From NCBI GenBank assembly GCA_947561395.2, contig OX387183.1:31174853-31238852 (forward strand): DNA of 64,000 bases. Direction: 5' to 3'. Source of the stretch: Buxus sempervirens. Its lineage: Eukaryota; Streptophyta; Magnoliopsida; Buxales; Buxaceae. Under the pieces are notes generated by a model. The model saw only the letters and a list, made by a program, of their open reading frames with translations. It did not search any database and had not been told where the DNA came from. Positions 34,711 to 60,107 of this stretch are shown here, one piece after another. The translations under genes and the position numbers were made by a program. Every line of letters starts with the position of its first letter. Positions within the stretch are counted from its first letter, which is position 1.

Positions 34711-36534
34711 TGTGAGACATGGGGAAAAAAAATCAAATTCATCTTTTGACTTCCTCCAATCATCACACGGGATCAAATAGAACAAAGAGTCGCCACCATT
34801 CAATTTAGGTATGAATGGACACCAAAATATTAAATAAGCACAAAAGGCAATTTTAGGGTAAAAATAACCCTCCTAAAAAAACAACCAGAGATGGGTAAGG
34901 GGATTAAGTTATGAACAGGGGAAGGTGTTAGGCACCCCTATTCATCCACACAAGGTGGTTGCCCAGTATTGTTCATGTTTAAAATAAAGGAAAAAGCTTG
35001 CTATAAAAATCACACAAAATCACAAAAAGGCAAAAATATATGGTTCTTTCATATGAATATTCTGATTGATCCAGAACTATCAAATATGATCATACCATTC
35101 CTAGGGTTTCATGATCAAAACAAATTGAGATAAAATCAAATAAAATCAATTTAAAGTGAAAAATCCAAAAATCTAGCTTCAAGTCAAAATTCTAGAAATC
35201 TGGAAAAATATGATTTTTATAAAATATTTCAAAATTGAACTTGAATAGTCCAGGACATAGATAAAGCTCAAATTTCACATTAAATTAGAAAATAAAAACC
35301 AAAAATACCCACGTTGATGAAAAACACCAAAAGGGGAGAATTTAGACCGTAGGGTCTTCTCTCAATAATTAAAAACAATTTAAAAACCATATCATGAAAC
35401 CCTAGAATTTACTTTCAGGCCTCTAGATCCAGATCTATCATATTGATCATGATAAATCCAAGATCTTAGCCTAAAACCACAAAAATCACGAAAACAGTGC
35501 TGTAGGTGCAAAAGTGGCAAAAATCCAAATTTTATAAAAAAGTGGGGATCTCATGCTATAAACATCATGGATTCATGTTATTCATTCAGATTCATCATAA
35601 AAAGCATTAAAACATGATCAAGATATTTAAAGTAACCACATCTCACAGATTAGAGCACATGGGGGTCTATCCTACGGATCCACCTGTTCTCTTTTCCCCT
35701 AGTTCTCTCTTCACGTTTTACGGCTAGAGAGACTCTTGAGGTACTTGTAGATAGGTTTGGTTACACAAACACAATCACAGGCCTTATTCTATGAAAAAAG
35801 AAAAAAACAGATATGTGGTTCTATTCTAGGGATCCACCTGTTCCCCTTTCCCCTAGTTCTCTCTTCACGTTTTACGGCTAGAGAGACTCTTGAGGTACTT
35901 AGAGACAAGTTTAGGAAGACAAATATAACAGATGGCCTTATTCTACAGCAATAGAGGTGATCCTATTACATCTAGAATTGAAGACAGAAAATAAAAAGGG
36001 ATAGGGGACTTACCTGGATTGAGCAGGCAGGCAGCAGGAGTTCTTCTCTTCTCTTGGAGCTTCTTAGAATTCCTTGAACTTCAAATTTTCGTGGCCCTTA
36101 GCTTAAGAATCTCACCTCTATTTATAGGCAAGCACAGGGGCAAGGCTGGCCCAGAAGGATATATCCTGATCCTCAGGATAGAGTGAAAATTGGAGATAAT
36201 GCCCATCCATAGCCAACCAAGGTGTCTTCAGCGAATAAAATACGTAATTCGCTCATTTAAAGCTATATTGGACTAAAGATAAAGCTCGGAAACCGAGAGA
36301 AGGACAAAACTCGCACGTGTCTTTAGTGACCGTAAATGCACTACGGTCCAATGGTGACCGTATAGTTACTACGGGCGCGCCTGACCGTAGAGAATTTTCG
36401 GGCGCGACGGGCCCGTGAAGGAAATACGGACAAAGCCTGCTTAGTCAATTTTTATGCATTTTGGACCTGTTTTAAGCTCTAATTACATGTTTTTATTATT
36501 TTCTTATTTTGTAGTGCAATTTGGGGTGTCTACA
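34711..36534 (-). mobile_element. Family-2 solo LTR, reverse, in LINE ORF1
   Basis: It starts TGTGAGACATGGGG and ends TTTGGGGTGTCTACA. GGTAG flanks both sides (34706-34710 and 36535-36539). Length is 1824 bp. An AGAGTCGCCACC box lies near 34788. A reverse TATA box (CTATTTATAGG) is at about 36117-36127 and the reverse donor (GGGACTTACCTGG) near 36012. Two near-identical segments, about 35665-35745 and 35820-35905 (GATCCACCTGTTC ... TTTTACGGCTAGAGAG), are an internal duplication. Words based on CTACGGTC lie upstream of the TATA box at 36300-36430. No protein domain is seen. Confidence 0.93.
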
Positions 36535-38792: not shown

Positions 38793-39476
38793 TATAAGCA
38801 CCTAAATTTTGATCAAACCAAAAAGTGCTGAAAATAAAAACTTAACTGAAAAGTCAAACCCTAAGGGGACAAAAGTTGACTTTTGATCAAGTGCTAATTG
38901 GCCACCATAATTCTTCATAATGATTAGGAAATTCCGACACGATTCCAACGCAACTGAGTTTGCTCAGATTAGGGTCTGGATGAAGAAGATATGAGCCGGT
39001 CAAACTGGAGGGGAGCAGAAATTGACTTTCTGCTAAACCCTAGATCAGCTGCTTAACCCTGTCCCAATGGATAGAGGAGCTTGACCTAGTTCCAACGCAA
39101 CTGAGTTTGCTAGAATCGGAGTCCAGATAAATAAGTTATGAGTAGTTTTTGATCCTGGGCAGAATTGCTGAAAACTGCCTACGTGGCAAAAATGCAGAAA
39201 TCTGCCACGTGGTGAAAAAAGAGCAGATAAAAATATTTGGGGGCAAATATGCAAATATCAAAAGATTAGAAAATATCTAAGGGCAGATCTGTCAATAATC
39301 AGGAGAGAATCTGTAAAAATCCAAAAGTATCTGGGGATGAATCTGTGAATATCAAATTGATGAGAAAATAGCTCAAGGGCCAATCTGCAAATATCAAGAT
39401 TTATCCCCATGTGCTCTCTCCCTCTCTCATGATTAATGTTCCCCATGTGCATGCATGTGCATCCCATCATGCATAC

Positions 39477-39478
<2 letters not shown>

Positions 39479-39523
<45 letters not shown>
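39479..39523. repeat. (CT)n microsatellite
   Basis: A near-uninterrupted CT run, followed by shorter CT runs and CATGCATG repeats to about 39660. It creates Leu/Ser frames on the plus strand and Glu/Arg frames on the minus strand, none of which is a gene. Confidence 0.95.
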
Positions 39524-40799
39524 CCCCATGAGCACCCATGCATGCATCATGCATACACCTATCTCTCTCTCCCCCATCATACATGCATGCAACACCCCAT
39601 GCATCTCTCTCTCTCTCTCCCCCCATGCATGCATGCATCTTACATGCATCTCCCACATGATAAAACCACTCCAACCCCATAGGTATGGAGGGGGAGAACA
39701 CTTTTGCTCTCCATTCTTCGTCTCCAACCTCTCTCCCAAGTTCTCTTGACCTCTCCCACAAGTTCACCCTTCTCCCAAGCTCATCTCACCATCTCTAACC
39801 CCCTCTAAGCTCCCAAAAACCCCCTAGAATCACCTTCAAACCCTTCCCCATCTCCTCTCCTTCCACTTGCCTCCAAGGAGGAAACAAGGAGGTGTTGTTA
39901 GAGCCCAAGAAGAAGGCTCCAAGGTGCTGTCCAAGCCTTCAAGAGGCTTCCACACGCTCCAAGGAAGTTCACTAACACCAAGGTTGTGAAACCCCGTTCC
40001 AATATCCCTAGCACATCCTAATCAGTAAACTTGATGTGTAGGTAGAGCTGGAGAAGCTCAAGCCTAAAGCCAATCAAAGTGGCTAAGTCTCGGCTAGGCA
40101 GTGCCTATTGAGGTGAGCAACTTCTATTTGGTTAATGAGTTTCCCTAAGTGAGAAAATAGCTAAGTGTTGTTTAGTTATGTGCAATGTAGGAGGAGAGTG
40201 GCAAACTTGTAAATATGGTGTCTTGAGGAAATCATTTAAGTGGAGAAACAAGGGGAAAGAGTGCCATTCACGACCAAACCCTCACCCTTCTCCCATTCTC
40301 TTCACTCTCTTCTCCCACTCCTATCTTCTTCATCTCCTTCTTTTCATTTGCCTTCCCTCATCACCCCATTTCGTCCCCCATCTATTTGGAACCCATTTGA
40401 AGAGTTTGCTAGCAAGGAAAAGAAAGAAGAACACCAAAGGAACCATTTTCGTGTGGGTGTTCTTGGTGTAGATTTGAGGAGGAAGTCAAACCAAGGAGAT
40501 CAAGTGCTATTCGTGAGTTGCATTGGAGGCTATACAACTTGCTTAAGAGTTGGCAAGAGGTAAGCAACACCGTCCCAACCTTGTTTTCCCATTTTCGGCC
40601 AAAAATCGCATGTTAGATGAATGTTAGGGTTGAGATGTGAAAATGAGTCCTAGACCAAATGGGAGGGATTTCTTTGAGGGGTTTTGTTGGTAGTAGGTTT
40701 CTACACATGTTAGGAGTGATTTAGAGCCTAAAAATACCCATAACAAGTGAGATTTGAGAAAAACAAAAATCCCCAAAAGTTCAGATTTCGCGAACTGTC

Positions 40800-40995
40800 A
40801 AGAGAATCCAACCGCCTGAGCAGCCGCTCGAGCGCGGCATCGGGTGGTGGTTTTAGGCAGTTTAGGTAAAATTTTAAGGCATGGCCGCTCGAGCAACACT
40901 CGAGTGACTGTTTTAGCGAGTGTCTTAACAGAGAAACCCGAGAGCAAATTCTTGGCCGCTCGAGGCAGGCTTGAGCGATCCATTGAGCGCCTTTA
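40800..40995. repeat. CTCGAG word block of copy P
   Basis: GCCGCTCGAGCG, GCCGCTCGAGCAACACTCG and TTGGCCGCTCGAGGC are spaced by about 60-80 bp, with TTTTAGGC-type spacers. The block starts about 240 bp after the donor of this LTR. Confidence 0.7.
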
Positions 40996-41429
40996 CCAGA
41001 AATTCCAAAATTTGAGTTTTTAGCCCAGATTGAACTACCCTTTGTTTTTATTCAATTCCAACCTATGTATAAGTGAGAGTTAGGTGTCTAGGAGGTGTTC
41101 CAACTGGAAGTGTCTCAAAATTCCAAATAACAAGGATTTTGGGTATGTTTTGCCAAAGAAAGTCCTAGAAAGAGTTTCTGTCCCAGATTACTGTAGAAAT
41201 AGGATAACTTGACTCCGTCACTTCAAACACCTTCCAAATAACCCTTAGAAGTATAAGTCAAGAACCGAAACCAAATTGTTCAAGTAACAAAAGAGTTGGG
41301 GCATAGGTTGCCCAAAATGAGTCAAGAAAGGTAGAAATCTCTGGAAACCTAACCTTTACCATTGGTTATCAATGTGAGTACACCACACCTGAAATTATGG
41401 GCTTCGGCCTAGTATTTGACACATAGTAT

Positions 41430-41615
41430 GAAGGGCATTGGCCCGTATTACATTTGCACCACATCAAGGGCATTGGCCCGTATTACATTTGCACCACATC
41501 AAGGGCGTTGGCCCGTTACTTGTACCATGAGATAAAAAGGGCAGTGGCCCGTTGTATTGATATTGAATGGAGGGCAGTGGCCCCAATGACATTGAGATGT
41601 ATTGAGCAGAGGGCT
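41430..41615. repeat. 35-bp minisatellite in copy P
   Basis: GGGCATTGGCCCGT or variants start at 41433, 41468, 41503 and then at 34-35-bp steps to about 41605, roughly six units with growing divergence. The units are directly contiguous, so this is not a CRISPR array. It sits where other family-1 copies carry a different minisatellite. Confidence 0.88.
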
Positions 41616-42075
41616 TGGCCCAAGATTGACTCAGGTACGGCCATGGGCTACCCTTGAGCATTTTCCAGGCAAGTGTGCATGAGGTATTGACATGAGTATC
41701 TGACTAGTAAGACTTGGTGGGTTGTGAGCGGTTCATCTCAGTTGGGGTAGTGGACTGTTGTTCCTCCCAACTTGGAGATGGAGAACTAGCATCCTCCACT
41801 CAAGCTTGGATATAATTGATGTGTTATTATTCCGTACTTTGTTGCTATAATTGTTGTGAATTGATAAATGAACACATCAGCATAATGAACCCTTAAGGTA
41901 TGGATCCATAGTCTTAAATGGAAATGTTTGTATATATATGCCATGGCCAGTGTTAGTGTTACTGTACTGCTCTATATTGTGATATCATCTCGGCACCAAC
42001 ATCATCGGTGGCCGATGCCCACTTGCTACAGGGAATCGGCAGTGGATGTTTGTACGTCAAGGGGAATCGGCGTAT

Positions 42076-45000
42076 GTGTAAACACCTCATTTTTGCGCTT
42101 CCGGAAGAGCCTGAAATGCAAACCCTAAATAGAAAGTCAAATCCTGAGGGGTCGAAAATTGACCTTTTGATCAAGTAAAAATTGGCCACCTCGCTTTATC
42201 TCAATGGATAGAGAATCCCGACACGAGTCCAATGCAACTGAGTTTGTTGGAATCGGAGTCCGGATGAAGGTTTTGCGGGTCGGTCAAACTTGAGGGTGAG
42301 CCGAAAGTTGACTTTTTCCAAACCCCGAGCCAGGTGCTTAGCTCTATATCATTGGATAGAGGGCTCTGATACGAGTTCAATGCAACTGAGTTTGCTTAAA
42401 TTGGAGCCCGGATGAAAGAGATATGAGCTGTCGAAGTTTCCGAGCAGCAAAACCCAGAAAGCTGTACACGTGGCAAAAAGCCGCACACGTGGCAAGAGGC
42501 GCAAGAAAATATCTCGAGGGGCAATCTGTAAATATCCAAACATGCCAAATATCCCAGGGTTTAAAGCAAAATTTCGCAGGGACTAAATCTGGGAATATCT
42601 AAGAGTATCGGATGAATCTGTGAATATCCAGGGGCAAATCCATAATTTTTCGATTTGTATCCGACCAAGTATGTTGGATACACATACCCTTGTGTATATC
42701 CGACACTATTCATCGGATACAAGAAGATCAATCAGCGAGATTCGCGCCGGACGCCCGACAAATTCGCAGCGGCATTTAATTTTCGAATTATTATGTCTTG
42801 TATCCGACATTTTATGTCGGATACAAATAGGGCTTAGTGTATCTAACCTATATGGTCGGATACATTAACTTTGCTTATTTAAAGGGCCAGCAACCCCCTT
42901 CAAGATGGTTGGCTCTTTTTGCTGGTTCGAGGCTTTCTTCCCCCACTTGTGCTGGTGTGAACCTCCCTCCTCTCAGCTCCCTTTGCCTCCCATTGCCATC
43001 CCACCCTCTTGCAAGACCTTCCCATCCTTGTTTCTCTCTTCTTCTTCACTACTTTAACCAAGCTAAAGGAGTCTAGTTGCTGTTGGAGTGGAGCTTGGGC
43101 ATCAGAGGACTTTCCAGCAACATTTTGGCCTCAAGGCAGAGGCTCCACCTTGTACAAGGATCTAAGAACCCTTAGGTAAGGTTCCTCAACATATTGCGAT
43201 TCATATATATTAAAATCAGAATTTTCTGAAATTTTCCTACACGTGTTTCTTTCTTTGCATGGGCTTGTTTCCATGTATCTTATGCATGCATTTGGTTTTC
43301 TTTTCATGGCATGAAGCCACCACAAGTAAGAGGTTCACGTAGGTTCCTTTAGGGAGCATGGGAGTTCTTTTTTTTACATTTTGAATACCCTTTAGTTGCT
43401 GTCCTTGGGTTTTGTTTTAAGCTTTTTGCAAAGGGGAGCTTGTTCCTCTATAATTTTATCTAATGTATCCCCTATGAATCCCCCCCCCCCCTCCTTCACC
43501 TTCCTTTTTTCGTTTACTTTCCTGTAAACTTGGTAAGCATGTGGGTCATCCTTGGGCTTACGGTTGGCAGCAGCCGTATCAAGTCTTCCTCTCAGCAATT
43601 TCAACTCACATGCCATGCTTTTCTTTCCCTTTATCTGGTTTTTTTAAGCATGGATGCATGCCCCCTTCTCCCCAAGCTTGCTGCCCCCACTGTTTTTACA
43701 GCATGCTGTGTTTTCTTTCTTTGTGTGTAAATGTGCATGCCATGCTATTCTTGCTTGTTTGATTACATGGGCATGTGTTCGGTTTCCTCATTCATACACC
43801 GTAGTCACAAAGGCCTCCCATTCTCAGTGGATAGGAAGCCCATTTTCATGGATGACCTCCAGCACCATAAAGGAAAGATCCCATTGCTATGCTCCCCCAC
43901 CCCACCTTCTGCTATGCCTGACCATCCCCTTATTGCTTTTGCTTGGAAAGGTCGACTATGTGAGGATGCATGTTAATATTAGTATCAACTTCACATCTCC
44001 TTTGTACGTCAAGTTGTTTGCTTGCTTTTGTACTTGTAATTTTCTGCACCAATGTTGTTGCCCAGGGTAATGATTTCAGCATGATCCTGTCACCCCTTTT
44101 AACCCGCTATTGTGGCCCACATAAGCTGCTGCCGGAGGCAGCATCAGCATCCCTTTGGCCTACCCCAATGAAGCTGAGTAGCTTACCATGCTTTAACTTG
44201 TGTATCATGAACAAGAAGCCCTCTTTGTCATGTTCCCTTCACTCATAGCCCAGGGTGAGAACTCCAGGAAGAGCTGCTGGAGGCAGCAGTAAGATTTCCT
44301 CCCCTTTTCTCACCATCTAACCCTACCACCCACCCCTTAAGCATGTGTGAAGCCCCCTACTGGTGCTGTCCCAGAAAATTTAGAAACCCAAGACCATGTT
44401 CAGCCTTAATAGCATGTTCGAATGTTTCCCTTTGGTTGCTGCACTGAGTCACTACAGCATGCAGTTCCTTGGCTCTTGGATGTAACTTGCTTGCCACCAT
44501 GACCATTGAGTGCATCCATGGACTTTCCCACCACCCTAGTGGCATGCCAGGTAATTCCCAACCCAGCCATCCATCCTATTTTGCTTAAACTGGGAGCCTA
44601 ATTCTTGCTGCCCCTATATGGTGTATGAGAGTTTACTAATGGATTTCATGATATAGAGCATGCTTCAAGCCTCTTTGTTTTCTGATTTCCATCAAGAGTC
44701 ATGCTTGCTACTTGTGGAATCCTAGAGACCAAGTAGGGCACCTTGGTCCCTACTATATTAAGGAACATGATCCAAAGTGGAAGGAGGGCAGCACCTCCAA
44801 GCACCATTGCCCATCTGCTTACCTTTGCTGGAAATCCCCGGAGGAAGCCAAAGGGGATGCCTTCGCAAATCTGAACCAATGTGGGCCCTCTCTGGGGCCC
44901 ACATGACTTGTAGGAAGCCCCTAGGAACCCCTGGAAGTCACCCCAATGGCCAAACTTCGAAAGAAGGCATTTTTGAGGTGATCCGGCAACTCAGGCCGGA

Positions 45001-46073
45001 TCATCTATGGGCTGTGTGTATTTGGCAACTAAGGCCGGATACACAACAGAAATGCAATTTTGATGTCTTTTTTGATCCTTGCCGAATTTTCATGCTACTT
45101 TCAACAAAACCAAATGAACCAATAGGGTTTTCGGGTCACCCGGAAACCCAACTTGGGACATGGACCGCCGGTCCAACTTGGAATACCCATGGGCCTTCCA
45201 ATGAGGCCCACCTAGCCCAATAAAATCTGTTTGCATGCAAATAAACCAAATAAATAAATCAACCAAACCAGGTGGGCCAAACCCAATGCGGCCCACCCGG
45301 ACCTTGTTTTGTGGAATAATGTTTAAATTGCGTGGTTTGGCCGAGACCCCAGGCTAGGGTTTATCGGGCCCGCCAAAGCCCATTAATCGAACCAAGGAAG
45401 GGTGCAAACCCTAAACCTCAAAGAATCGGGTTTTCAAGCCCAAATCTGGATCATGGGCCCCAAGCCCAGTGGCCAGCCCATTTTGGCAAAGCTAAATAAA
45501 ACAAATCCAAAACATTCTTGGCAACCATCATGGGGGCCCACCCCAGGGCCCGCCAACCAATGCAGACCAACCTTTTGCATGAAAATCACCTAAAATTCCA
45601 ACTTAAATAATTAAGTAAAATCAACTCACTAACCTAAGCCCAAAGGGCCTCCTAGGACTAGACAGAGGCCCACCAGAGGCATGTGGGCTTAACTAAGCCC
45701 ACCAGGGACACCGTGGGCCTTCCAAAGGGGCCCACCCAATAAGACTCAGATCACCTAAATTAAGCAAGATAAAATCAATTAAAGGGACCCACACCATTTA
45801 GGTAGTCCCGCCAGACTTAACCAAGTTGCATTAGGAATCGGGTGAGAAACCAAGGCCAGCTGACTCAAACCAGGGAACCCACAGGGACCCGTCATTTGAC
45901 GGGATGGACTGGGGTGTCTACGGACTTCCCCAGACCACAACCGAGACCCTACTTAGAATCTCAAGCCACAGACCAGCCCAATAGACAAGATTAGACACCC
46001 AGGTGTCCGCCTGCACCCCATCAGGCGGTGGCGACTCCGAATTTTCCCGTGCGGCGTTTTCGACGTGCACACA
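42076..46073 (+). mobile_element. Family-2 solo LTR, forward, innermost insertion
   Basis: It starts TGTAAACACCTCATTTTTGC and ends TTTTCGACGTGCACACA; GTATG flanks both sides (42071-42075 and 46074-46078). Length is 3998 bp, the longest family-2 copy. TATCCGAC words fill 42655-42862, just before the AT-rich TATA candidate near 42876. A donor candidate TTAGGTAAGGTTCC is at 43175. A C12 run is at 43480-43491. A second block with GGCCGGATAC lies at 44977-45050. The GTGGCGACTCC box is near 46030. The 43.5-45.2 kb frames have no recognisable domain. Confidence 0.94.
42655..42862. repeat. TATCCGAC palindromic word block (upstream of TATA)
   Basis: GTATCCGAC and GTCGGATAC alternate, so that several copies can pair, for example TATCCGACATTTTATGTCGG near 42800. 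The block ends about 15 bp before the TATA candidate of the family-2 LTR at 42076. The related word CCGGATAC returns at 44977-45050. Confidence 0.85.
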
Positions 46074-47867
46074 GTATGGATGCCTACGTCAAGGGTAATT
46101 GGCGTAGATGCCTAGCTACCATGTGGAATCGGTGAAGCTAGACGAAGCCATGTATAGTATATATAAACATCCCTGATAAGAAGTGATAATATTGAATACA
46201 TGATTGCTATTAAATGGATTATCCATACACTGAGGCACATGCATGCACTATTGTCTGACACATAAGATGCGGTGGATTTTGTAGTATTAGAACTACCTGC
46301 ATGCCATGGTTTTATCGAAAGATATTTGTATAAATTATGTTTTCACCGAATCATGCATGTGTTGCTTACTGAGACATTCGTCTCACAGTTGCTGCTTATC
46401 TTATTTTTCAGATCCATCGTCGTCCGGTGTGAAGGACTGGGTTGGGTATAGAGGCAAAGAGAAAGCCATTGGGTATAGAGAGGAGGATTTCTATAGGCTT
46501 TAGGTTTCTTTCTTTATTGTATATGTATAGTTCATTTTGGACTTGTAACCCTTACCTTTGAGAGATGAGATTAGTCACCCAATATTTTGTAACTAAACTC
46601 TTGTGTCCTATTTCATTTCTTTCATATATATATATAGAGCACACTTTTGATATGCACAAGCATGAACAGTTTGCACTTGCACTTGTATAGAAAAAGTTTT
46701 AAAATCCTTCGTGTTTTGTCAAGTAATTGGCCCACTTGCCACGGTCTCGGACGGGTTGTGCCTTGGAGGGGCAGACCTGGTTCTAGGTCATGACAAAGGT
46801 AAGCTTCCTAAAACCCTTTTGTATGACATAAATGAATCTAAGGGTAATGTGAGCATGTTTGTTATATACACTGTTTCTTCCACTTAAGCATGCTTCCTCC
46901 CCCCTTCTTCTTCATTGCTTCTTTATTTCCTTCGTAAGATCGAACTCCCATGGTAAGGGGAGATAGGTTGGTCGAATGGAGGGGAAGGTGAGAGCCCTCT
47001 TAGTGCAAGGAAAATCATGTTTAAGTCTTCACTTAATGTTTTGCCATGCTTTCATTTTATGATTTTAGGGGAGAGCATGTTCCCCCCTCTTTCTCTCATG
47101 TCTAATGTATCCCTTTAATCCCCCAAGTCCCTTCCTTTTATCTGCTTTCAAGCTACCTTCACGTGCATTATTTCCTATGCAATATAATTGTACGGATTAA
47201 TGGATTGGCACACAAACAAGTAGCACACCTCATGAGCATCTCTACCATAATCTTTTGTCTACTTATTCATCTTTAGGCCCACTTGCATGACCATTCCCAT
47301 GTTGTGTGCACAAAGGCATCATGTGTGTGCATGAAACCCTTAGAACACTTGCATAGGTCTTCCTCTTAGTTACTTTATTTGCATGTACATTAATATGAGT
47401 AGTACACACACACACACTACCTCATGGTTTCACAGCATGTGATAAGCCCATCTTATCTTGCTTTTGCTCATCCTTGATTACTCCTTTGAATGAATGCATT
47501 GTGTGGCCATATGGGACTTGTACATGGGCCAATTGGGCCACCCCCTTTCCCCTTCTTTATGGAGAAAGGAGGGATGTCATGAGTACCACAACAGGGACAC
47601 CAAGGGTCCCTGTTTTGCTTCTTGAGTTTCACCTCAAGGAGGGGGACAAGGCCCAAGCCTAAGTCCCCCTCCCCTTGGATCCAAAAAAAAGTAAATAAAG
47701 GTAGCCCTCTTTGGCTCAATTCACAATCACAGACCACCGTGGGCCCACATAGTCCCTGTTTTCCCCATGAAACCAGAGAACCCAAGCTCCTAACAAAAAT
47801 TGCAAAAAACAAAATTTTAAGCTTGATCAACAACTCAGGTTGGTCAAGCAGGTTTTTTAGTATATCC

Positions 47868-47965
47868 GAAATCATATTTCGGATACACTGATTTTTAGTG
47901 TATCCGAAACCATATTTCGGATACACTGATTTTTAAGTGTATCCGAAATATAATTTTGGATACAG
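47868..47965. repeat. Three tandem palindromic units
   Basis: The unit GTATCCGAAAYCATATTTCGGATACAC-type, itself nearly self-complementary, occurs three times, spaced by CTGATTTTTA. The third unit has decayed (TATAATTTTGGATAC). It sits in the 3' half of the family-2 LTR 38793-48620. Confidence 0.9.
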
Positions 47966-48625
47966 CCAGAAAAATACAAAAAAATGCATATTTTGTTTTC
48001 TTTGATAATTTTTAACCTTTTTTTCAATAAAATCAAATAAATCCCATTGGTTTTGGGTCGACCCATGACCCAAGACGGGCTTCGAGCCCAATAAGCCCAA
48101 ATCAAGTATCCATGGGCCTTCCAACGGGGCCCACCCATTCCAAATCAAATCAACCAAAGCCAAAAGGGGTTCTCCAACGCAACCCCAAACGGGACTTGGG
48201 CTTTCACTAAAGCCCAAATTGGCATCTTGTGGGTTTTCCAACGTGGCCCACACACCAGACCCAGATCATTTAGGTTAAATAAGATAAAATCAAGTAAAAA
48301 AGGGACCTACACCACTCAGGTGGTCCTGCCAGACTTAACCGAACTGTGCATGCTTTGACTTAGGAATCGGATGATTGTAGAGCCAAGTTGACTCATAACC
48401 AGGAAACCCATGGGACTCGTCATTTGATGGGATGGACCAGGGTGTCTACGGACTTCCCTAGACCGTAACCAAGACCTTGCTTAGAATCTCAAGCCGCAGA
48501 CCGCCTACTAGACAAACCTAGGCATCCAGGTGTCTGCCTGCACCCCATCAGGCAATGGCGACTCCAACCTTCCTGAATTACCCTTTAGGAGGCGCGCCCA
48601 CCCGTGCCACCATGCGCACACATAT

Positions 48626-50180: not shown

Positions 50181-50716
50181 TGTGCGCACGTCGTACCTGT
50201 GCGAGGGCACGCGCGAAAGCGAGGGGAGAATGGGGGTTAGGAGTCGCCACTGCCTGATGGGGTGCAGGCAGACACCTGGATGCCCTAAGGATGTATATTT
50301 TGGTCTGCGGCTTGAGATTCTGAGAAAGGGCTCGGTTACAGTCCGGGGAAGTCCATAGGCACCCCGGTCTGCCCCGTCGGTTTGACGGGTCCCTTGGGTT
50401 TTCCTGGTTGCGAGTCAACTCAATTCTAAATTCACCCAACTTCTATGCCAGCATGCACATTTTATTGGTCTAGGTGGGGGCCACCATGGTGGTGTGGGTC
50501 CCCTTTTCTTTTTATTTGATTTTATTTTTTTATACAGGTGATGTTGATCTGGCATGGACCCTGTTGGAAGGCCCACAAGATGCCAATTTGGGCTTTAGTG
50601 AAAGCCTAAGTCCCATTTGGGGTTACGTTGGATAACCCCATTTATTGGATTGGTAATTTGGTTTGGGGGTTGATTAATTACACAGAATTGGTGGGTTTAC
50701 TGGGCCTAACTGCAGA

Positions 50717-50795
50717 ACAGGTGCGGTTTGGCCCGAACCGCACATACTGTGCGGTTAGAGCCAAACCGCTCTGTGTATGCGGTTTTGGCACAGAA
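50717..50795. repeat. GCGGTTTGG word block, distal copy
   Basis: GTGCGGTTTGGCCCGAACCG, TGTGCGGTT, AAACCGCTC and ATGCGGTTTTGG lie within about 80 bp in both orientations. The same word returns about 1 kb away at 51730-51910 in the same LTR. Confidence 0.85.
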
Positions 50796-51729
50796 AGCCC
50801 AAAAGACAGTTTTCATGGGGCTTTGGGTTCCTGGGTCTCTTGTGATGTCTTAGCAAGGTCTGGGTCCCTTTGTGGGCCCACGATGGTTCAGAGAGGGGAA
50901 TACCCCTCCTTTGGTCTCTTTTGAGCTCTACGATTCAAGCAAAGGGGGAGGGGAGAAGGCCTAGGGCTTGCCTCTCCCCTTCTTGGGATCTTTCGCACAG
51001 CGGGGTAGGGACTTGAGTACCCCTACCTTTGTTCTTTCAACTTCACACAACAGTAAACAAACAAGTCAAACAGAAGCATTTAAGCAAGATTATAAAAGAA
51101 GGGAAAGAGAGGGGGGGTTAAATGGGGTACATGAGAGGCACAAAGTAGAGGGACAGATTCCTCATTCGAATGGGACCAACCTATAGCAAAACAGAGCATA
51201 AAGTGCTCCTAAAAGTGTAGGAGGGCACTTTCTCACCCCCTTCCTTCGCTATCATCCATGTACCATCCCCTTACCATGGGAATTTCCATGTTTAGTAAGA
51301 AGAGGAAAATGGACAGAAGAGACACTACTCATACTAGAAATGAAGGAGATAACAAGCTAAGACTAAGGAACACCAAACATACTCGGAACATGCTCATTCT
51401 CACTTATGTCAAATACAATGTCATAAGGAACATTACCTTGGGGTTTTGAAACCCTGGAGAGGTGTGTTTGAGCCTCCTTCAGGCAAATCAAGGGCTGGAG
51501 CAGCTCCTCTTGGCACCACAAGCAAGTTCCCTTCCTCCTTCTTCAAGTTGGGTAGTGATGGAGGAGGGTGGAGGAAGGCTAAAAAAAGGTCTTGGGAGTG
51601 GGGCTTGGATGGTATGGAGGCAAAAGAGGTAGTTTCATACCAGCAGCAATGGGGGAGAAGGGGTGGAAACAACCCAAAGGCAGCCAGCCCCTGTCCAGAG
51701 TTCGGGTTTGCTATTTATAGAAAACAGGG

Positions 51730-51910
51730 ACAAAACCGCATAGTAGATGCGGTTTGGTCTAAATCGTAGGGTATGTGCGGTTTGGCCACGTCTTTTCAGC
51801 AATCATTAGGGGACAAACTGGTTAGGTGCAGTTTGACGCACCACAGTACGGTTAATTTTCGAGCGTCGCTTGCTCTAATTGGCTCGCGCGAGCAGTGGCC
51901 GAAAAATCAA
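51730..51910. repeat. GCGGTTTGG word block, upstream of TATA
   Basis: AAAACCGCATAG, GATGCGGTTTGG, TGTGCGGTTTGG, GGTGCAGTTTG, ACGGTTAA and AACCGCACACC-like words are spread over this stretch, which begins about 10 bp from the reverse TATA box at 51711-51720. Confidence 0.8.
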
Positions 51911-52066
51911 CCGCACACCATATTTTTCTCTCCCCTTTTGGCTTGAGTTGACGGCTGAGGTGACTTAGCCGCCCACTCGGACGAATCATGCTCCTCCAAT
52001 TTTTTTATTATTTCCCATTTATCTTAGCATATTTGGTTTGATCAAAATTTGGGTGCTTACACTCAT

Positions 52067-53387
52067 CTTGGTATTTTGGCAGGTCATGTTCTGATGGATC
52101 CAATCCCGAATCTGGATTTACAAGTGGTTGATCTCATAAATGAAAATGGTTCTTGGAATGTTCCTTATCTCCCTCAATTACTTCCCCAATCTATGGTTAG
52201 GCAAATTGTAGACATAAAATTTCGTCCATCTTCCTTAAAGGATAGGGCGTTGTGGATGGCTACTTCTTCTGGGTTTTTTTCCACAGCTACAGCTTGGAAC
52301 TTAATCAGAAAAAAGGATAATCCTCATTCGTGGGGGAAGAATTTATGGCCTAGTTTCATTCCTTCTAAGATAAATGTATTCACTTTGAAATTTCTCAAGG
52401 GTGCTTTGGCTACTGATGATCGAATTCAAAGAAGTGGCATCAATATTTGTTCTCAATGCAATTGATGTTCTTCAAAGAAAAGGGAGACCTTGAATCATCT
52501 TTCTCTTTTGGAGAGGTTGAAAATTTGGTATGGGAGTATTTTGTTGGTTGTTTCGGTTGTCATCATCATCCTTTACACGATTTGATCACCAGGATTTCCT
52601 TCTGGTTTTCAAGTCCTAATGTTAATGATCAACTTGGAATTCGTTTTAAAGCTACTCCCATACTAATTTTCTGGGAATTATGGACAACAAGGTGTAGAAG
52701 TAGATTTGAGGATGAAAGCATGTGTACAAACCAGATTATTCAAAAGGTGCAGCATTGGCTTCAAGAGGTTTCTTACTTCACCAAACCAGCAAGAACATGT
52801 GATTTTAAGAGGGCTATAATTCTAGAGCATTTGAACATTTTCTCACCTTCGATCAGCTCCCCAAAGTCCAATTTTGTTCGATGGAAGAGACAAAGAAACT
52901 TCCCTTTTATTTTGAATGTTGATGGTGCTTCAAAAGGAAACCCAGGAGTAAGTGGAGGAGGTGGAATCATTCGAACTTCTTTAGGTCATTTCTTTGCTGG
53001 TTTTTTTTAGCTTTTTAGGGATATAACTCAAATCTCATGGCAGAATTTTTGGCGTTAAGAGATGGGCTGCGATTGGCTGACAGGTATGGATCACAAAACC
53101 TCCATATAGAATTTGATTCCAAGGTTTTTGTGGACATAATTGCAAGCTTGGCATCTGTTCCTTGGAAATTTCTCCTTTGGTGGAAGGAAGTGAAAGAAAG
53201 GCTAGATTCTTTTAACCGAATTGTGCATCATGTATACAGAGAAGCAAACTCAGTAGTTGACATGTTAGCTAACGAGAGTTGCGTCAATCTTAACCAAAAT
53301 GTTTATGATTTCTATTTTGAGCTATCTCCTCAAGTTAAGAATTGTCTTTTTCATGACAGAACAAGATTATTTTCTATTAGATACTAG
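52067..53387 (+). pseudogene. LINE ORF2, zf-RVT and RNase H region, frameshifted
   Basis: The first frame (to 52465) gives LKDRALWMATSSGFFSTATA, SKINVFTLKFLKGALATDDR and the zinc-binding NICSQCN start of the zf-RVT motif. A TGA at 52463-52465 and a shift near 52500 follow. The next frame carries an RNase H start LNVDGASKGNPGVSGGGGII (first Asp). A third frame after a shift in the T8 run near 53000 carries MAEFLALRDGL (Glu), IEFDSK (Asp) and HHVYREANSVVDMLAN (final His/Asp). This is the plant-LINE RVT_3-type RNase H. The stop is TAG at 53385-53387. Confidence 0.92.
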
Positions 53388-53580
53388 TTTCTGTTTCTTT
53401 GTTTTGACATGGGGTAAGGTTTTATGTCCCCCCCCCCCCCCCCCCCCCCCCATAGAAGTTTTAACCTTTTTGATAGATTTGATATATAGGTCAGGGTCTG
53501 CCTCAACCCTCCTCCTACCGTTGGAGTGCCACTAAGGTTATTCATGCCTTAGTGGGTTTTCCTTAAAAAAAGAAAAAAAA
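53388..53580 (+). other. LINE 3' UTR with C24 run, terminal hairpin and A-rich tail
   Basis: A run of 24 C occupies 53428-53451. Just before the A-rich tail, CCACTAAGG (53529-53537) and CCTTAGTGG (53547-53555) form a perfect 9-bp stem around a 9-base loop. Then TTTTCC leads into the A-rich tail at 53564-53580. Hairpins at the 3' end are used by some LINE reverse transcriptases for template recognition; that role here is inferred from position. Confidence 0.85.
53428..53451. repeat. C24 homopolymer
   Basis: An uninterrupted run of 24 C in the LINE 3' UTR. Its length could be affected by sequencing or assembly. Confidence 0.95.
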
Positions 53581-53594
53581 AAAGGAAAACCTAT
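53581..53594. repeat. Right target-site duplication of the LINE
   Basis: AAAGGAAAACCTAT, an exact match to 33958-33971. The first bases may also be counted as part of the A tail. Confidence 0.95.
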
Positions 53595-56500
53595 AGATAT
53601 TGCATTTCCCACTTGGCATTCAACTCATAATCATATAAATTCCTCCCTATTATAATCACATGACATAGATGGCTAGAAACTAATATAGAGCACTTCTGTT
53701 CCTTAATCAAATCACATGGAAGTAGATTTAGAGGTTAAGATTGCAAGAATTTCACTACGGGAAATTAGCTGCACAGGTCATTTTTAGCCAAGCTGGGCGC
53801 CTACTGCCTGAGGTAGGCGCCCCCTGAGCAGCCTCCTAAAACTAACCAGCCACCAACCCTTTTGCAGTAGGCACTGGTAGGTGCCCAAATGCTGATTTTT
53901 CAGAATGAAATTAACTCGTTGCAATTCCTATTTCCACCATGTCTGAACCGTAATTCCACCTAAAAACAGTTTGATTCTCCTCTTACCTCTTCTAACAACA
54001 TGCTCAACATCAATCGAATTTAATTTAATCTTAAATCGGCCACAATTCAGAAAATTCATTCATAAATGTTCACAGTTGTTAAAGCTCATATGCAACAAAT
54101 TAAATCACATTTCTAATCAAAATTTCGTTTGCAAATCTGAGAGAAAGCGAGTGCTACTTACCTGTTCCATATTAGATCCAACGCCTACAGCAACCAATAA
54201 GTAGATTTGGAGTTTCCATGACCAATCCTCTCTTCAGAACTTTTGAGATTCTAAGTAGGGTCTCGGTTGTGGTCCGGGGAAGTCCGTAGACACCCCGGTC
54301 CACCCTGTTGGGTGACGGGTCCCTTAGGTTTATCCTGGTTTGAGTTAGCTCACTTATTTTCCCACCCGATTCCTAATCCGATATGCAGCTTGGTTAAGTC
54401 TGGTGGGACCACCTGAGTGGTGTGGGTCCCTTTGATTTCTTTTATCTTGATTAATTAGGTAATCTGAGTCTAGTTGGGTGGGCCCCATTGGAAGGCCCAC
54501 GGTGTCCTTGGTGGGCTTAGTCAAGCCCATGTACCCTTGTAGGCCTCAGTCTAGCCTGAGAGGCCCTTTGGGCTTTGGTTAGTTTAATTGATTTTACTTT
54601 TGGTTTCAAATTGGATTTAAGTGGTTTTCATGTAAAGGTGGGCCGGATTGGTTTGTGGGCCCCTTAGGTGGGCCCACATGGTAGCCAAGTAATTTAGTGG
54701 ATTTATCTTTTTAAGTTTCCAAAAATGGGTTGAACACTGGGCTTGGGGCCTGTAGCCCTGATTAGGCTTGAAAGCCCAAGTTACGGGAAGTTAGGGTTTG
54801 CACCCTTCCTTGGTTCGGTTGGTGGGCTTTGGCAGGTCCGGTAGGCCCTTGCCCTTGGTCTCGGCCAAACTACGCATTTCAAACATCAATTCACCAAGTT
54901 TGGTTCGGGTGGGACGCATTGGGTTTGGCCCGCCCCAATAGATTGGTTCATTTATTTATCTTGATTAGGCCACATGCATGCATTCCATTGTGTTCATTGG
55001 GCTTGGTGGGCCTCGTTGGAAGGCCCACGGAAAATCAAATTGGACCGGGGGTCCAAGTCCCATGTTGGGTTTCTGGGTGACCCGGAAACCCTATTGGTCC
55101 ATTTGGTTCGGTTTGAAGAAGTCACCCATATCCAGCAAAATCACAGAATATACAGAAATTCGGTAATAATAAAAAAACCGAATTGCTTGTTTCAAAAAAA
55201 ATAAGCAATTTGGTAATAATAAAAAAAAGGCATCTGCGCACGCGCTCGACGCGAGCTCAGCACGAGCTCGGTGGATGCAAAAATGCTCCGCGTGAGCTTC
55301 GCGAGAGTTAGGCGCGAGTTCCGCGCGAGCTCGGCGCATACCCACTACGAAACTTGATCTTTTGTTTCTTCTTAAACTCAATGTCTGGCTTGATTTACAG
55401 TCTCTGTAACACCTCCCAGTGCTTCTTCCACTCCCCAGAAGGCCTTTAAACATGCATCAAATTTAATCTAAGCTACTTCGAACCACGACCCAAGATCCCT
55501 TTACGAAAAAAAAACGAACCCGACTATTATCAAACAACTACAGACACCTAGTAATGGGGGTGATGGGAGCATGCTTACAGGGACACAAGAAGCAATCAGC
55601 AAGTGGCAGGGGGTTGGGGGAGCATGTTGGCAAGTCTAGCAACATAAAATAAAAAAAACAACAACCGACAGAGATTGCATGCATAAGAAAAAAAACAAAC
55701 TTCCACCCACACCTGGACCGGACCTCCGAGCATGCACACTAACATCCGAAGAAGGGAAGGAGGAGGGGGGTTTACAGGGATACATTAGATGAGATGACTG
55801 ATAAGGAACACGCTTCCTCTTACAACAAATCTGATATTCCCCAAAACCGTAGCCTGGGAGATCCTCTCATGGTCGATGAAGAGTAAGTGTATGGAAATCC
55901 CATGTGGCAGCGACTTGAAACATGGTGGATACTATACTTTCACAAAAATCATGCAAGATAACCAGTTTTCATATATATGATATAAAAGCTAGTGGGGAAC
56001 AATACCTGAGAGTTCCTAGCTCTTTTGTGGAAGTGTGTGATCTTCTCGAAGCAAAAACACTGCTATGAGCTTCTTCTCCAACAGCCACCGTAAGTAGCTC
56101 CTCCGGTCTGTGCGCACCTAAAACCTGGATCTTAGATTGCACACCGGGCGCACTTTTCGTGCGTGCCTTGGGACTTTTCGGAGTCGCCACTGCCTGAGAG
56201 TGCAGGCAGACACGGTTTTGCCCTAACCGGGTCTAAGTCTGGTCTGCGGCTTTTTCAGAGTTCTAGCTAAGTCCTCGGTTACGGTCCGGGGAAGTCCTAA
56301 AGACACCCCGGCCCGCCCCGTCGGTTTGACTGGTCCCTCGGGTCTCCTTGGTTTTTGAGTCAAGCTCACCCTTCCTAGACCAGCATGCTGCTTTATTTGG
56401 CCTGGTGGGACCCTCTGAAGGTGTGGGTCCCTTTTATTTGGATTTTATCTTTTTTATTTAATGGAGTGGGTCGGACTCGGGTCCCGTTGGAAGACCCGCA

Positions 56501-56847
56501 GGTTGCCATGGTTGGGCCTTGGGCCCTATTGGGTTATTGGGTAACCCATTTGGTTATTTATTAAATTAAACCATTTAACACATGCAATGGACTTAGTGGG
56601 CTTGGATTTGGCCCATTAGCCAAGGGTCAAGGGGCCTGGGCCTGTTTATTGAAAACAGGCCTGGTATAGGCCAGTCTAAGGGGGGCCCCACAAGTGGGCC
56701 CAAGGTGCCTTGGTGGGCCCATTTAGGTCTACAGCCCATAAATGGGCTTAAAATGGCCCAGGGAGTCTAAAGGGTTGGTTCAGGCCGGTTCAAGTCGGAT
56801 CAAGTCCAACCAGGCCAAAAATTAAGTTTTTTAAGTTATAATTACAC

Positions 56848-56945
56848 TGGCCCGTATTTGTTATACAGATTGCCTTTGCCCGTGAATGAATGCCGGTTAG
56901 GCTTGCCCGTGAAGCAAACACGGGCATGCCCAAACCGCTCTGAGT
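56848..56945. repeat. CCCGTATTT/CGGGCATGCC word block, distal copy
   Basis: GGCCCGTATTTG, TTGCCCGTGAATG, TTGCCCGTGAAGC and AACACGGGCATGCCC lie within 100 bp. These repeat the words of the block near the TATA box of the same LTR. Confidence 0.82.
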
Positions 56946-57734
56946 TTACGGACGCCACTAATTTTGCATTTTGGCCGCCGATTCTGCTTGGGATTGCTCC
57001 GGCGACTTTCTCAGGTGTTCCGGCAACCTTTGTGATGGATCTAGTGCCTTCTGTCACAGCATATTCAATTCATTTGCCTCTGCAAGTCTTCTTTTTCCTT
57101 AATTTTGCCAAGCCACTTTCTTGTTGCTCCAAAAGAGAAAGGAATGGGGGGATGGGATTACATTGAAGAAGCTTAAGAGGACAATCCCCTCTTATATTTA
57201 CAAATGTAATCAATGAAGCAAGATATGTCAATTTTCTTCTTTTTGTTTGTTTTATGAGTCCATTTTTTATGTACTTCACAAAGTGTTGCTCATTTGCATG
57301 GGAGTATTTCACCAAAACCAAACAAACCGATTAGTAATCTGGTGATAAAATAAAAGGAATCCAAAGTTGCTTTAATGAAGAAATTTACATGCATATTAAA
57401 AGAAAGAGGTAATTAGAGACATTACCACACCTTTGACTCCTTAGTTTGTTGATGTTTGGGTCCTCCGATGATTCCGGCAGCGCTTCCGCGTCCTTCAGAA
57501 ATTCTTGAATTGGTTTTGACAGGGGTTTGATAGGTTGTTTATGTTTACAAGGTGAAAGAGGGAGGTTGGGCAGTATCTCAGGGGTATTTTGGGTATTTTG
57601 GTGTTTGGGATTGGGGTGGCATCACTTGGACAGAGGTCGGGCGTGGTAACAGCAAGGAAGAAAGGGGGTGGAGGCCCTGGGAGTCAGCTTGTTCAAATGA
57701 GGGGGGTGGCCTCTTTATTTATAGCCAAAATTTT

Positions 57735-57955
57735 CGTGCTCGTATTTGAAGTACGGGCATGCCTTGCCCGTACTTCAAGTACGGGCGTGCCTTGTCTGTA
57801 ATTCAAATACGGGTGAAAAACGCACATTTCCAAATCTCGCAAAATCGGCCGTATGGGACGCATGTCCCGCCGTACAGCGACACGCATCCCCTTCTAGAAG
57901 CTTGCCCGTATTTCAAATACGGGCATGCCTCGTCCGTACTTCAAATACGGTCTAG
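57735..57955. repeat. CCCGTATTT palindromic word block (upstream of TATA)
   Basis: GAAGTACGGGCATGCC, GCCCGTACTTCAAGTACGGG, CAAATACGGG and GCCCGTATTTCAAATACGGG form repeated perfect or near-perfect hairpins. The block begins about 10 bp from the reverse TATA box. It generates the recurring CLARTS / YFKYGHA-like peptides in several frames, which are translation artefacts. Confidence 0.9.
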
Positions 57956-60107
57956 CACGTTTTTTTTAAAATGTTTGGATTTCAAACCTTTATTCAATTT
58001 GATTTTTGGTAAGATTTTCATTCGATTTCTTTGATTATTTTATTATAAAACGAGATTCTTTGATTAAAATATTATTTAAAGTATTTAATACATTTATCTT
58101 ATTTGTTTTATTGATTTATTCTATTTTTTGCTGCCTTTTTGCCGCATGGGCAGTTTTTCTGAAACTTCAACTGCCCATAACTTCTTCTTCCGGTGTCGGA
58201 TTTCAGCAAACTTAGTGTCGTTGGAACCGGCTCGGAACCACCTATCCACTGGGGTCAATTTGGGTAGTCGAATTGGGGTCGACCAAAAAGTCAACTTTTT
58301 GCCCCTTAAAAGTTTGACCGGCTCATAACTTCCTCATCTGGACTCCGATTTCAGCAAACTCAGTTGCGTTGGAATCGGGTCGAAGTGTTCTTTTCAATGA
58401 GATGAAGTTTAATGGCCAAATTCACTTTACTCAAAAAGTCAATTTTTTGACCCCCTCAGGGCTTGACTTTTCATTTTTCTTCATTTTGGGGGTGCAAAAA
58501 GCAGGTGTCTACACGGTCTTTGGTAGAAGAATGAAGGAGAAGAAGAGAAAAGAGAGTCGGAAGGCACGGTTAGGTGTTCGGGTGAAGTAGGCAGGGGAGA
58601 AGGGAGTCGGTCCGGCGATCCTAAGGGAGCCAACCAAAGGAAAAACCCTCGACCAAGAAAAGCTTTTGACCGAAGAATTTCCCAACAAGAAGAGAGCCCA
58701 CCGAAAAATTTTCCAACCCTTTGCACAAAGAGTCGCGCAGCTTTCATAGAATGGGAAGAAGGGTATCCGCTGAGCTTGCGCTGAGCACGTTTTGCGCTCG
58801 CCCCGTTCGCGCGAGTGGCATAATGATTGAAAAACCATTAATGCGGCTGCTAAATGGTCGAAAAATCAAATATTTTTGGATTTAGTCCCTGGTCATTTTT
58901 GATTTAATCCGATATTCTTGGATTTTTACAGATTTAGTCCCTGGGATATTTCGTACGTTTGGATATTTATGGATTTGATCCCCGAGGTATTTTTCTGCAC
59001 AACTCGCCACGTGTGCAGTTTTTGCCATGTGTGCAGTTTGCCGGCTTTGCTGCTCGGAAACTTCGTCAGCTCATATTTTCTCCATCCGGACTCCCATCTG
59101 GGCAAACTCAGTTGCGTTAGAATCGTATCGGAGCCCTCTATCCAATGACATAGGGGTAAACATCTGGATCGGATTTTAGCAGAAAGTCAACTTTCGGCTC
59201 ATTTCAAGTTTGACCGGCCTGTAGAACCTTCATCCAGACTCCGATTCCTGCAAACTCAGTTGCGTTGGAACCGTGTCGGGATTCTCTATTCAATGACATA
59301 AAGTGAGGTGGCCAATTATCACTTGATAAAAAGGTCAACTTTTCACCCCTTAGGGTTTGACTTTCCGTCCAGGGTTTGCATTTCTGGCTTTTCCGGGAGC
59401 GCAAAAATGAGGTGCTTACACCATGCTTGACACACCACCAAACCACCATAAACCAACCAAATAAGAATTCCTATAATGTCTCTTACCTATTTAATAGAAT
59501 TGTCCAATCTTGTTCGCCCGAGAACTCCGGTTTGACCCTTTTTCTCCATTTATGAAATTTTTTCATCAATTAAATCAATTAACAACCAAAAATCCAATTT
59601 TTAATGTTATTAAAAATTCGGGATTTTATAATTAGTGATGGCTTGTCGAGTTAACACCCGGGCCATATCCGTGTTCCAACATGTGGGATCGGTGAGGCCT
59701 TCTTGTGGGATAGTTGAGTTGCGCAACCTGTTTTGTAAATTCCTAGATTTTAGTAATAAATAAACTGATTAAGTTAATATTATGCAGTGGTTGAGGCATT
59801 GGTTCAACCCGGAGAAGTCCAAGGTGAACCGGAGGAGAACTTGGAAAGCTAACCTAAGGTGAGATTTTTTTTAAGTTTAAATTAGGGAGAAATTTTAGTT
59901 ATTATTACTATTCAGATTGTTATAGTGTAGAACTAATTAAAAAATAAAATATAAGAGTGAAAGAGAGTTGTTCGAACCTATAGAGTGGGGGTTGACCCAA
60001 AAGATTGGTTTGGTTTGAGGTTTAATGGGTTGATTATGTTTGTGTTGTAAAGGGGGTATTTTAGTAAAAGGAAATTAATTAAGAAAATAACCTAAAACAA
60101 GTTGGGA

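Follow-up and report, generated by a model that had tools for sequence, protein, structure and literature searches.

The long terminal repeats (LTRs) of the elements that we call family 2, in a 64,000-nucleotide stretch of the Buxus sempervirens genome (contig OX387183.1, G000:C3:31174853-31238852, hereafter the window), mostly contain two distant blocks that are arrays of inverted repeats (dyads), not lone words. The dyads have a common core, CCG-N11-CGG, in LTRs A, B, C, E and H, and class-specific flanks (TATCCGGC, AACCGCA, GCCCGTA, GACCGTA). In most copies, one array (U) is located just upstream of the TATA box, and another (D) upstream of the conserved 3' LTR flank. Judging from the DNA sequence, we consider it fairly probable that these arrays are double-stranded DNA operators of a putative homodimeric or higher-order sequence-specific DNA-binding protein, because the dyads share a core and a single spacing, are phased and mostly stand in register with the TATA box.

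The family-2 copies of the window are the solo LTRs A, B, C, D and E, whose target-site duplications (TSDs) were read. The four pairs of blocks that a first-pass annotation of this DNA had reported, in A to D, were found again at the same coordinates. The features of these copies, and of the related LTRs G and H, are the following.

50181..52061, minus strand: solo LTR A, TSD CTCAT, word AACCGCA (analysed as 50181-52059).
51724..51910, minus strand: U array of A, upstream of the TATA box at 51712-51719; the dyad at 51736-51752 is exact, the remaining ones are degenerate.
50717..50800, minus strand: D array of A, in which two exact CCG-N11-CGG dyads are spaced by 28 bp.
42077..46073, plus strand: solo LTR B, TSD GTATG, word TATCCGAC (U) or GATCCGGC (D).
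42655..42862, plus strand: U array of B, two exact dyads and degenerate ones, the last CGG being 16 bp from TATTTAAA (42876).
44977..45050, plus strand: D array of B, one exact and one degenerate dyad.
56109..58513, minus strand: solo LTR C, TSD CGGTC, word GCCCGTA.
57735..57955, minus strand: U array of C, a 28-bp lattice; TATA box at 57716-57723.
56848..56951, minus strand: D array of C, in which GCCCG and AACCG half-sites are mixed.
58519..59420, minus strand: 5' piece of LTR D, the outer element, split by C; the TSD, CCATG, is tentative.
54221..56103, minus strand: 3' piece of LTR D; the end of the LTR is missing.
58760..58822, minus strand: U block of D, GC class (GCTCAGC/GCGGATACCC), the last CGG being 18 bp from a weak TATA box (TATGAAA).
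55225..55345, minus strand: D block of D, GAGCTCGCGC-type repeats with an 11-bp period.
38793..39984, plus strand: 5' piece of solo LTR E, TSD CATAT; its U region is rich in ATGCATGC and CT and has no CCG-N11-CGG.
46796..48620, plus strand: 3' piece of E (analysed as 46795-48622).
47865..47975, plus strand: D array of E, GTATCCGAAA type; two of its three dyads are exact and spaced by 38 bp, the third is degenerate.
34711..36534, minus strand: related solo LTR H, TSD GGTAG, word GACCGTA/GCCCGTA (analysed as 34711-36529).
36330..36429, minus strand: array of H, with four exact dyads at steps of 27-28 bp; the TATA box, at 36119-36126, is about 200 bp downstream.
About 31389-33547: related LTR G, near the family-2 copies.

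The TSDs also give the order of nesting: in 38793-48620, E inserted into a long interspersed nuclear element, F (39985-46795, TSD AAGGT) into E and B into F; in 54221-59420, C inserted into D.

The core was detected by comparing all 64 triplets with their own reverse complements at gaps of 0 to 30 (31 gaps). In LTRs A to E, CCG-N11-CGG ranks first (17 occurrences, against a median of 1 over the gaps), and 14 of these 17 dyads fall inside the blocks. It also ranks first (73 against 7) in the 3.8 kb upstream of a conserved anchor at 20 genome loci, the first in chromosome order out of 2,040 anchor matches in the 676.5 Mb searched (247 contigs). In G and H taken together it ranks fourth (4 against 0), all four dyads being in H; the same scan found no second array of exact dyads in H and no CCG-N11-CGG in G. 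One perfect dyad, ATGAGTTGGAC/GTCCAACTCAT, is present at 31807-31834 in G. The words had been described as element-specific, which is not fully so: the core is common, the flanks differ by class, and the D block of C has one AACCG half-site that resembles those of A.

Genome-wide, TATCCGG-N9-CCGGATA occurs at 28,399 places (control 5); the same half-sites are found 14 times with N10 (control 2) and 6 times with N7, which served as spacing control (control 1). AACCGCA-N7-TGCGGTT occurs at 3,706 places (control 2). The pattern CCG-N11-CGG-N11-CCG gives 28,546 + 28,631 = 57,177 matches, against 2,450 + 2,651 = 5,101 for the reversed pattern; CGG-N11-CCG arises between neighbouring dyads of the 28-bp lattice. 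These counts bear on the idea that the dyads act as RNA hairpins, which would serve to package the transcript or bring RNA ends into contact, or would be templates from which small RNAs and silencing arise, as has been argued for the palindromes of maize Sireviruses, on which small RNAs accumulate according to the available excerpt of PMC10760457. Four array segments of the window fold better than all 200 shuffles of each (z = -13.9, -6.2, -3.4 and -4.3), which agrees with the RNA pairing envisaged in the first-pass annotation; however, such folding is expected of any dyad, hairpins would tolerate changes in the loop, yet N9 far outnumbers N10 and N7, and RNA pairing predicts neither one word common to all the units nor a register to the TATA box. 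We consider it improbable that the dyads work in this way.

Consecutive exact dyads are spaced by 39 bp (18 times), 28 bp (8), 104 bp (4), 78 bp (2), 27 bp (2), and 38, 77 and 86 bp (once each). TATCCG-type LTRs have the 39-bp repeat (38 bp in E), and the AACCGCA, GCCCGTA and GACCGTA types mostly have a repeat of 27-28 bp, with one spacing of 39 bp in locus L053. That 39 and 28 differ by 11 bp, and that the repeats of the GC class described below are 11 bp long, suggests a step of one helical turn; 28 and 39 bp themselves are not whole turns at 10.5 bp.

In the U arrays of the TATCCG class, the agreement between units is 0.72-1.00 at half-site positions -5 to +1 (that of CCG being partly by construction, since CCG was used in the selection) and 0.28-0.52 at the other positions. 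It could be argued that the arrays are functionless products of neutral tandem-repeat turnover, or of conversion between U and D: their units are repeated in tandem, and slippage seems to have made the 11-bp repeats found in the GC class. But the spacers of the T class (TATCCG) vary from unit to unit when the CpG-bearing half-sites do not, U and D are often non-identical (B, C), and the register to the TATA box also speaks against neutrality, so that we regard this explanation as very improbable. Repeated conversion, which was one of the mechanisms put forward earlier, is not favoured either, because the two blocks of B, and those of C, are not the same, and the dyads of E and L036 are confined to D.

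The register was measured from the end of the last CGG to the TATA box in 19 LTRs, including H and leaving out E, which has no clear TATA box. The distance is 15-18 bp in 13 of them: 16 bp in seven (B, L035, L038, L045 and L048 of TATCCG type, A and L053 of AACCGCA type), 15 bp in L042, these eight LTRs covering two word classes, and 18 bp in five that all belong to the GC class (D, L037, L046, L047 and L050). As to position, U ends close to the TATA box and D is upstream of a flank that can be aligned between classes. The paired and diversifying signals are real, and among the three mechanisms originally suggested for co-evolving sites (protein binding, RNA pairing, conversion), protein binding fits best, because of the single fixed spacing, the 28/39-bp phasing and this register. 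ACGTGGC-type G-boxes are present upstream of the U blocks, at like positions, in B (about 42460-42500), E (39175-39220) and D (59005-59030).

The sharing of words between U and D was examined by permutation in 19 LTRs, namely A to E and 14 of the 20 genome loci. The U block was defined as the 320 bp upstream of the TATA box, and the D block was searched 1,500-350 bp upstream of the anchor. L040, L041, L043, L044, L049 and L052 were left out of both versions of the test because the LTR start or the TATA box was not located or the copy is apparently truncated or nested. The LTR starts of L045 and L048 were placed by hand; in the TATA-based version the D window of L048 was widened and the position of the TATA box of E was guessed. 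The normalised number of 8-mers shared by U and D of the same LTR is above that of all 50,000 permutations (p <= 2e-5), and within the window p is 1/24 for A-D and 4/120 for A-E, which confirms the expectation that sharing is higher within LTRs than between them. The corresponding values for A-D, A-E and the 19 LTRs are 2/24, 4/120 and 2e-5 with 7-mers, and 1/24, 6/120 and 4e-5 with 9-mers. A version based on content-blind windows of maximal CpG gives 2/24, 5/120 and 1e-4; these windows misplaced some blocks (L047, L048, B), and TATA-based windows took their place. When a single LTR is kept per flank cluster, the median p is 0.002 (8 clusters), 0.004 (7) or 0.07 (4). Own pairs share 22.9 words on average, against 14.1, and against 15.9 in the 20 ordered pairs of different LTRs whose flanks are at least 90% identical, which shows that word sharing does not simply follow the relatedness of the flanks. 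The own D block is the row maximum in just 1, 2 and 5 of the 19 rows (k = 7, 8 and 9).

The claim that one LTR has the same word in both blocks has to be qualified. E, which was not in the original list, has a strong D array and no CCG dyads in U, the inner letters of B differ between blocks (CCGAC in U, CCGGC in D), and the pairing of LTR D is weak, its own score being below its row maximum. Both E and L036 have TATCCG-type arrays in D only, and their U region is rich in ATGCATGC; this stretch (39420-39670 in E) stands in for the dyads upstream of the promoter. Elsewhere in the genome, the first 100 CCG-N11-CGG-N11-CCG places listed form 35 arrays, including five pairs separated by 903-1,001 bp. 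Of ten more loci (L024-L033), analysed up to 1.5 kb from the anchor, seven have one or more dyads at the place of D, and four have two or more. U and D of L035 hold eight exact dyads; the other LTRs listed have fewer. L003 has two arrays about 1 kb apart whose outer letters differ; no anchor was found there, so this locus is outside the U/D counts.

Some LTRs have no lattice arrays and contain GCGCTCACC or GAGCTCGCGC words instead: these are D, L034, L037, L039, L046, L047, L050 and L051, among which D, L037, L039, L046, L047 and L050 are of the GC-rich class (GC class). In five of the seven D blocks tested (L051 was not among them) the strongest lag is 11; it barely exceeds shuffles in L039, has lag 22 as its equal in L050, and gives way to lags 31 and 33 in L046. 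The tandem doublet of GCGCTCACCTC has 524 matches genome-wide (control 0). In the pairs B/D, L035/L037 and L035/L039, both ends of the LTRs align and the middle between U and D does not, whereas B and L035, members of a single class, can be aligned all the way through both blocks. L039 (GC) and L048 (TATCCG) share 2.6 kb of internal DNA at 91% identity; their 3' LTR flanks are 79-86% identical and their middle cannot be aligned, in a comparison made without a located LTR start for L048. The combination of changing flanks and unchanged geometry suggests that a recognition code has drifted or has been exchanged.

Arrays apparently also occur outside LTRs. One exact TATCCG-type LTR dyad is present 1,542 times in the genome; among 100 of its places listed, there are 36 same-strand neighbours within 25 kb, of which 19 at 20.1-21.2 kb and 12 at 14.9-16.1 kb, distances that fit a pair of LTRs. 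Five such elements, compared by eye over the exact matches listed, have further TATCCG arrays that follow the first LTR array at 3.7-3.9 and 14.9-15.6 kb; since none of these matches lies 3.7-3.9 kb after the second LTR array, the extra arrays are apparently internal. This is relevant to a branch of our explanation in which the LTRs acquired enhancers that are read by ordinary host transcription factors, the classes corresponding to different paralogues. The arrays adjoin the TATA box, and the ATGCATGC arrays that E and L036 have at the same place resemble the RY element bound by B3 factors. On the contrary, several classes differ in their flanks and not in geometry or core, and TATCCG arrays recur within five full-length elements, apparently at internal sites, which looks more like the mark of a dedicated partner. 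Ordinary host factors are thus a possible answer, to which we give somewhat less than an even chance.

Internal DNA was read to about 3.4 kb. The open reading frame (ORF) that follows the LTR in L039 matches the plant mobile domain (PMD, PF10536, E 1.6e-13) and DUF7745 (3.3e-12), both above the cut-offs, and two pieces of the ORF of L048 match DUF7745 more weakly, under its cut-off. A PMD-type ORF near the 5' LTR was thus found in L039 and L048, and none was found after the LTR of L041, which is followed by a primer-site-like stretch. As the specificity factor, this ORF is a weakened candidate: its L039 and L048 versions are 84-87% identical in two stretches despite unrelated words. The host 'DOWN' motif CATGCAGTTT, as given in the available part of PMC9899485, has no resemblance to the dyads. 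Comparing the best PMD matches with array coordinates by eye reveals no clear link among 117 scored out of 8,447 first-look candidates, 150 of 5,546 and 150 of 7,225, which are too few to decide. The 117 scored PMD matches include 12 same-strand pairs 3.42-3.45 kb apart (for example C4:42315242 and C4:42318696), possibly from elements with two PMD ORFs.

Several observations weigh against the operator reading. The analysis yielded no binding protein for the arrays, and common descent accounts for part of their constancy. The outer parts of the 20 loci, which may hold neighbouring copies, also contain CCG-N11-CGG (26 against 5, rank fourth). Spacer positions +4 and +5 of C are fully conserved, as much as the half-site, and H has few conserved positions in its half-site flanks; the contrast between half-site and spacer is therefore clear only in the TATCCG class, and our confidence is slightly lower than it was before these values were considered. 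The register is broken in L051 (20 bp), L039 (22 bp) and L034 (49 bp), as well as in C, where the distance is 44 bp and becomes 16 only if a last dyad with one mismatch is counted; L036 and H have no CGG dyad end within 70 bp of the TATA box, and E has no clear box. L037 and L039, both of GC class, have ends that are 91% identical and a middle that can be aligned only in part, which shows that the classes are not uniform modules. Last, the accessory ORFs of L039 and L048 are similar when the words of these elements are wholly different.

If the arrays are operators, the protein, whether it comes from the element or from the host, would bind them and either drive transcription from the LTR promoter or protect it from silencing. 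Changes in the half-site flanks (TATCCGGC, AACCGCA, GCCCGTA) would track shifts in the specificity of the protein, so that each subfamily may read mainly its own copies, by analogy with VANC and VANDAL transposons, and whole promoter modules may be swapped between elements. A more specific scenario, which the sequences make conceivable and which we hold to be rather unlikely, is that of a Ty3/gypsy-type superfamily with its own diverging codes: a family of element-encoded dimeric proteins (CCG core, changeable flanks) would read phased operators in three places (the promoter, the second block of the LTR, and noncoding sites inside the element), only its own subfamily would be activated or unsilenced, and the codes would be exchanged as LTR modules.

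If the operator reading is true, a single plant genome contains, in its LTR retrotransposons, tens of thousands of operators that have the same geometry and several recognition words. One could then test directly whether retrotransposons resemble VANDAL transposons in diversifying the sequence-specific control of their promoters. The arrays would also provide a natural series of altered half-sites at fixed geometry, useful for finding the protein. The CCG-N11-CGG core and its register to the TATA box are a concrete signal to seek in other plant genomes.

The first-pass annotation knew of no described system that matches, which is too strong a statement, although there is no report of CCG-N11-CGG arrays in LTRs among the literature matches listed. 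A close system is that of Sireviruses, as described in the excerpt available of PMC2829016: these Ty1/copia elements have element-specific palindromes, named RM (repeated motifs), with CGG/CCG cores, in 8-32 copies; they precede the TATA box in the LTR, and a second cluster precedes ENV. The palindromic repeats described here are likewise in the LTR upstream of the TATA box, but the excerpt presents a core with short or no intervening bases instead of CCG-N11-CGG; the 28/39-bp phasing, the register to the TATA box, the second block within the same LTR and the several word classes on alignable LTR ends are further differences from what it describes. The accessory ORF points tentatively to Ty3/gypsy and, in the portions available of the plant mobile domain literature (PMC5418596, PMC7156037, PMC9899485), PMD-A clades are assigned to Gypsy elements (PMC5418596).

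Another comparison is with Ty3/gypsy elements of Ogre/Tat type that carry a PMD ORF, a lineage to which the present family may belong: L039 and L048 have a PMD/DUF7745 ORF after the LTR, the LTRs are long, and the LTR arrays of another TATCCG subfamily are about 20 kb apart.

In the Tnt1A, Tnt1B, Tnt1C and Retrolyc1 elements, U3 has diverged or has been exchanged while the coding DNA is still similar, according to the part of PMC1838419 that is available; one pair here, L039/L048, similarly combines similar internal DNA with an unrelated promoter module, whereas neither lattice geometry nor a paired second block is described in that part. The available excerpts of PMC5735166 and PMC10398659 describe VANC as anti-silencing proteins, whose target motifs in VANDAL transposons are in noncoding repeat arrays. 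As in these transposons, short motifs in noncoding repeat arrays change together between related families, which is borne out here by arrayed motifs that differ between related copies. The difference is that VANDAL is a DNA transposon, whereas we describe LTR elements with inverted dyads of fixed geometry.

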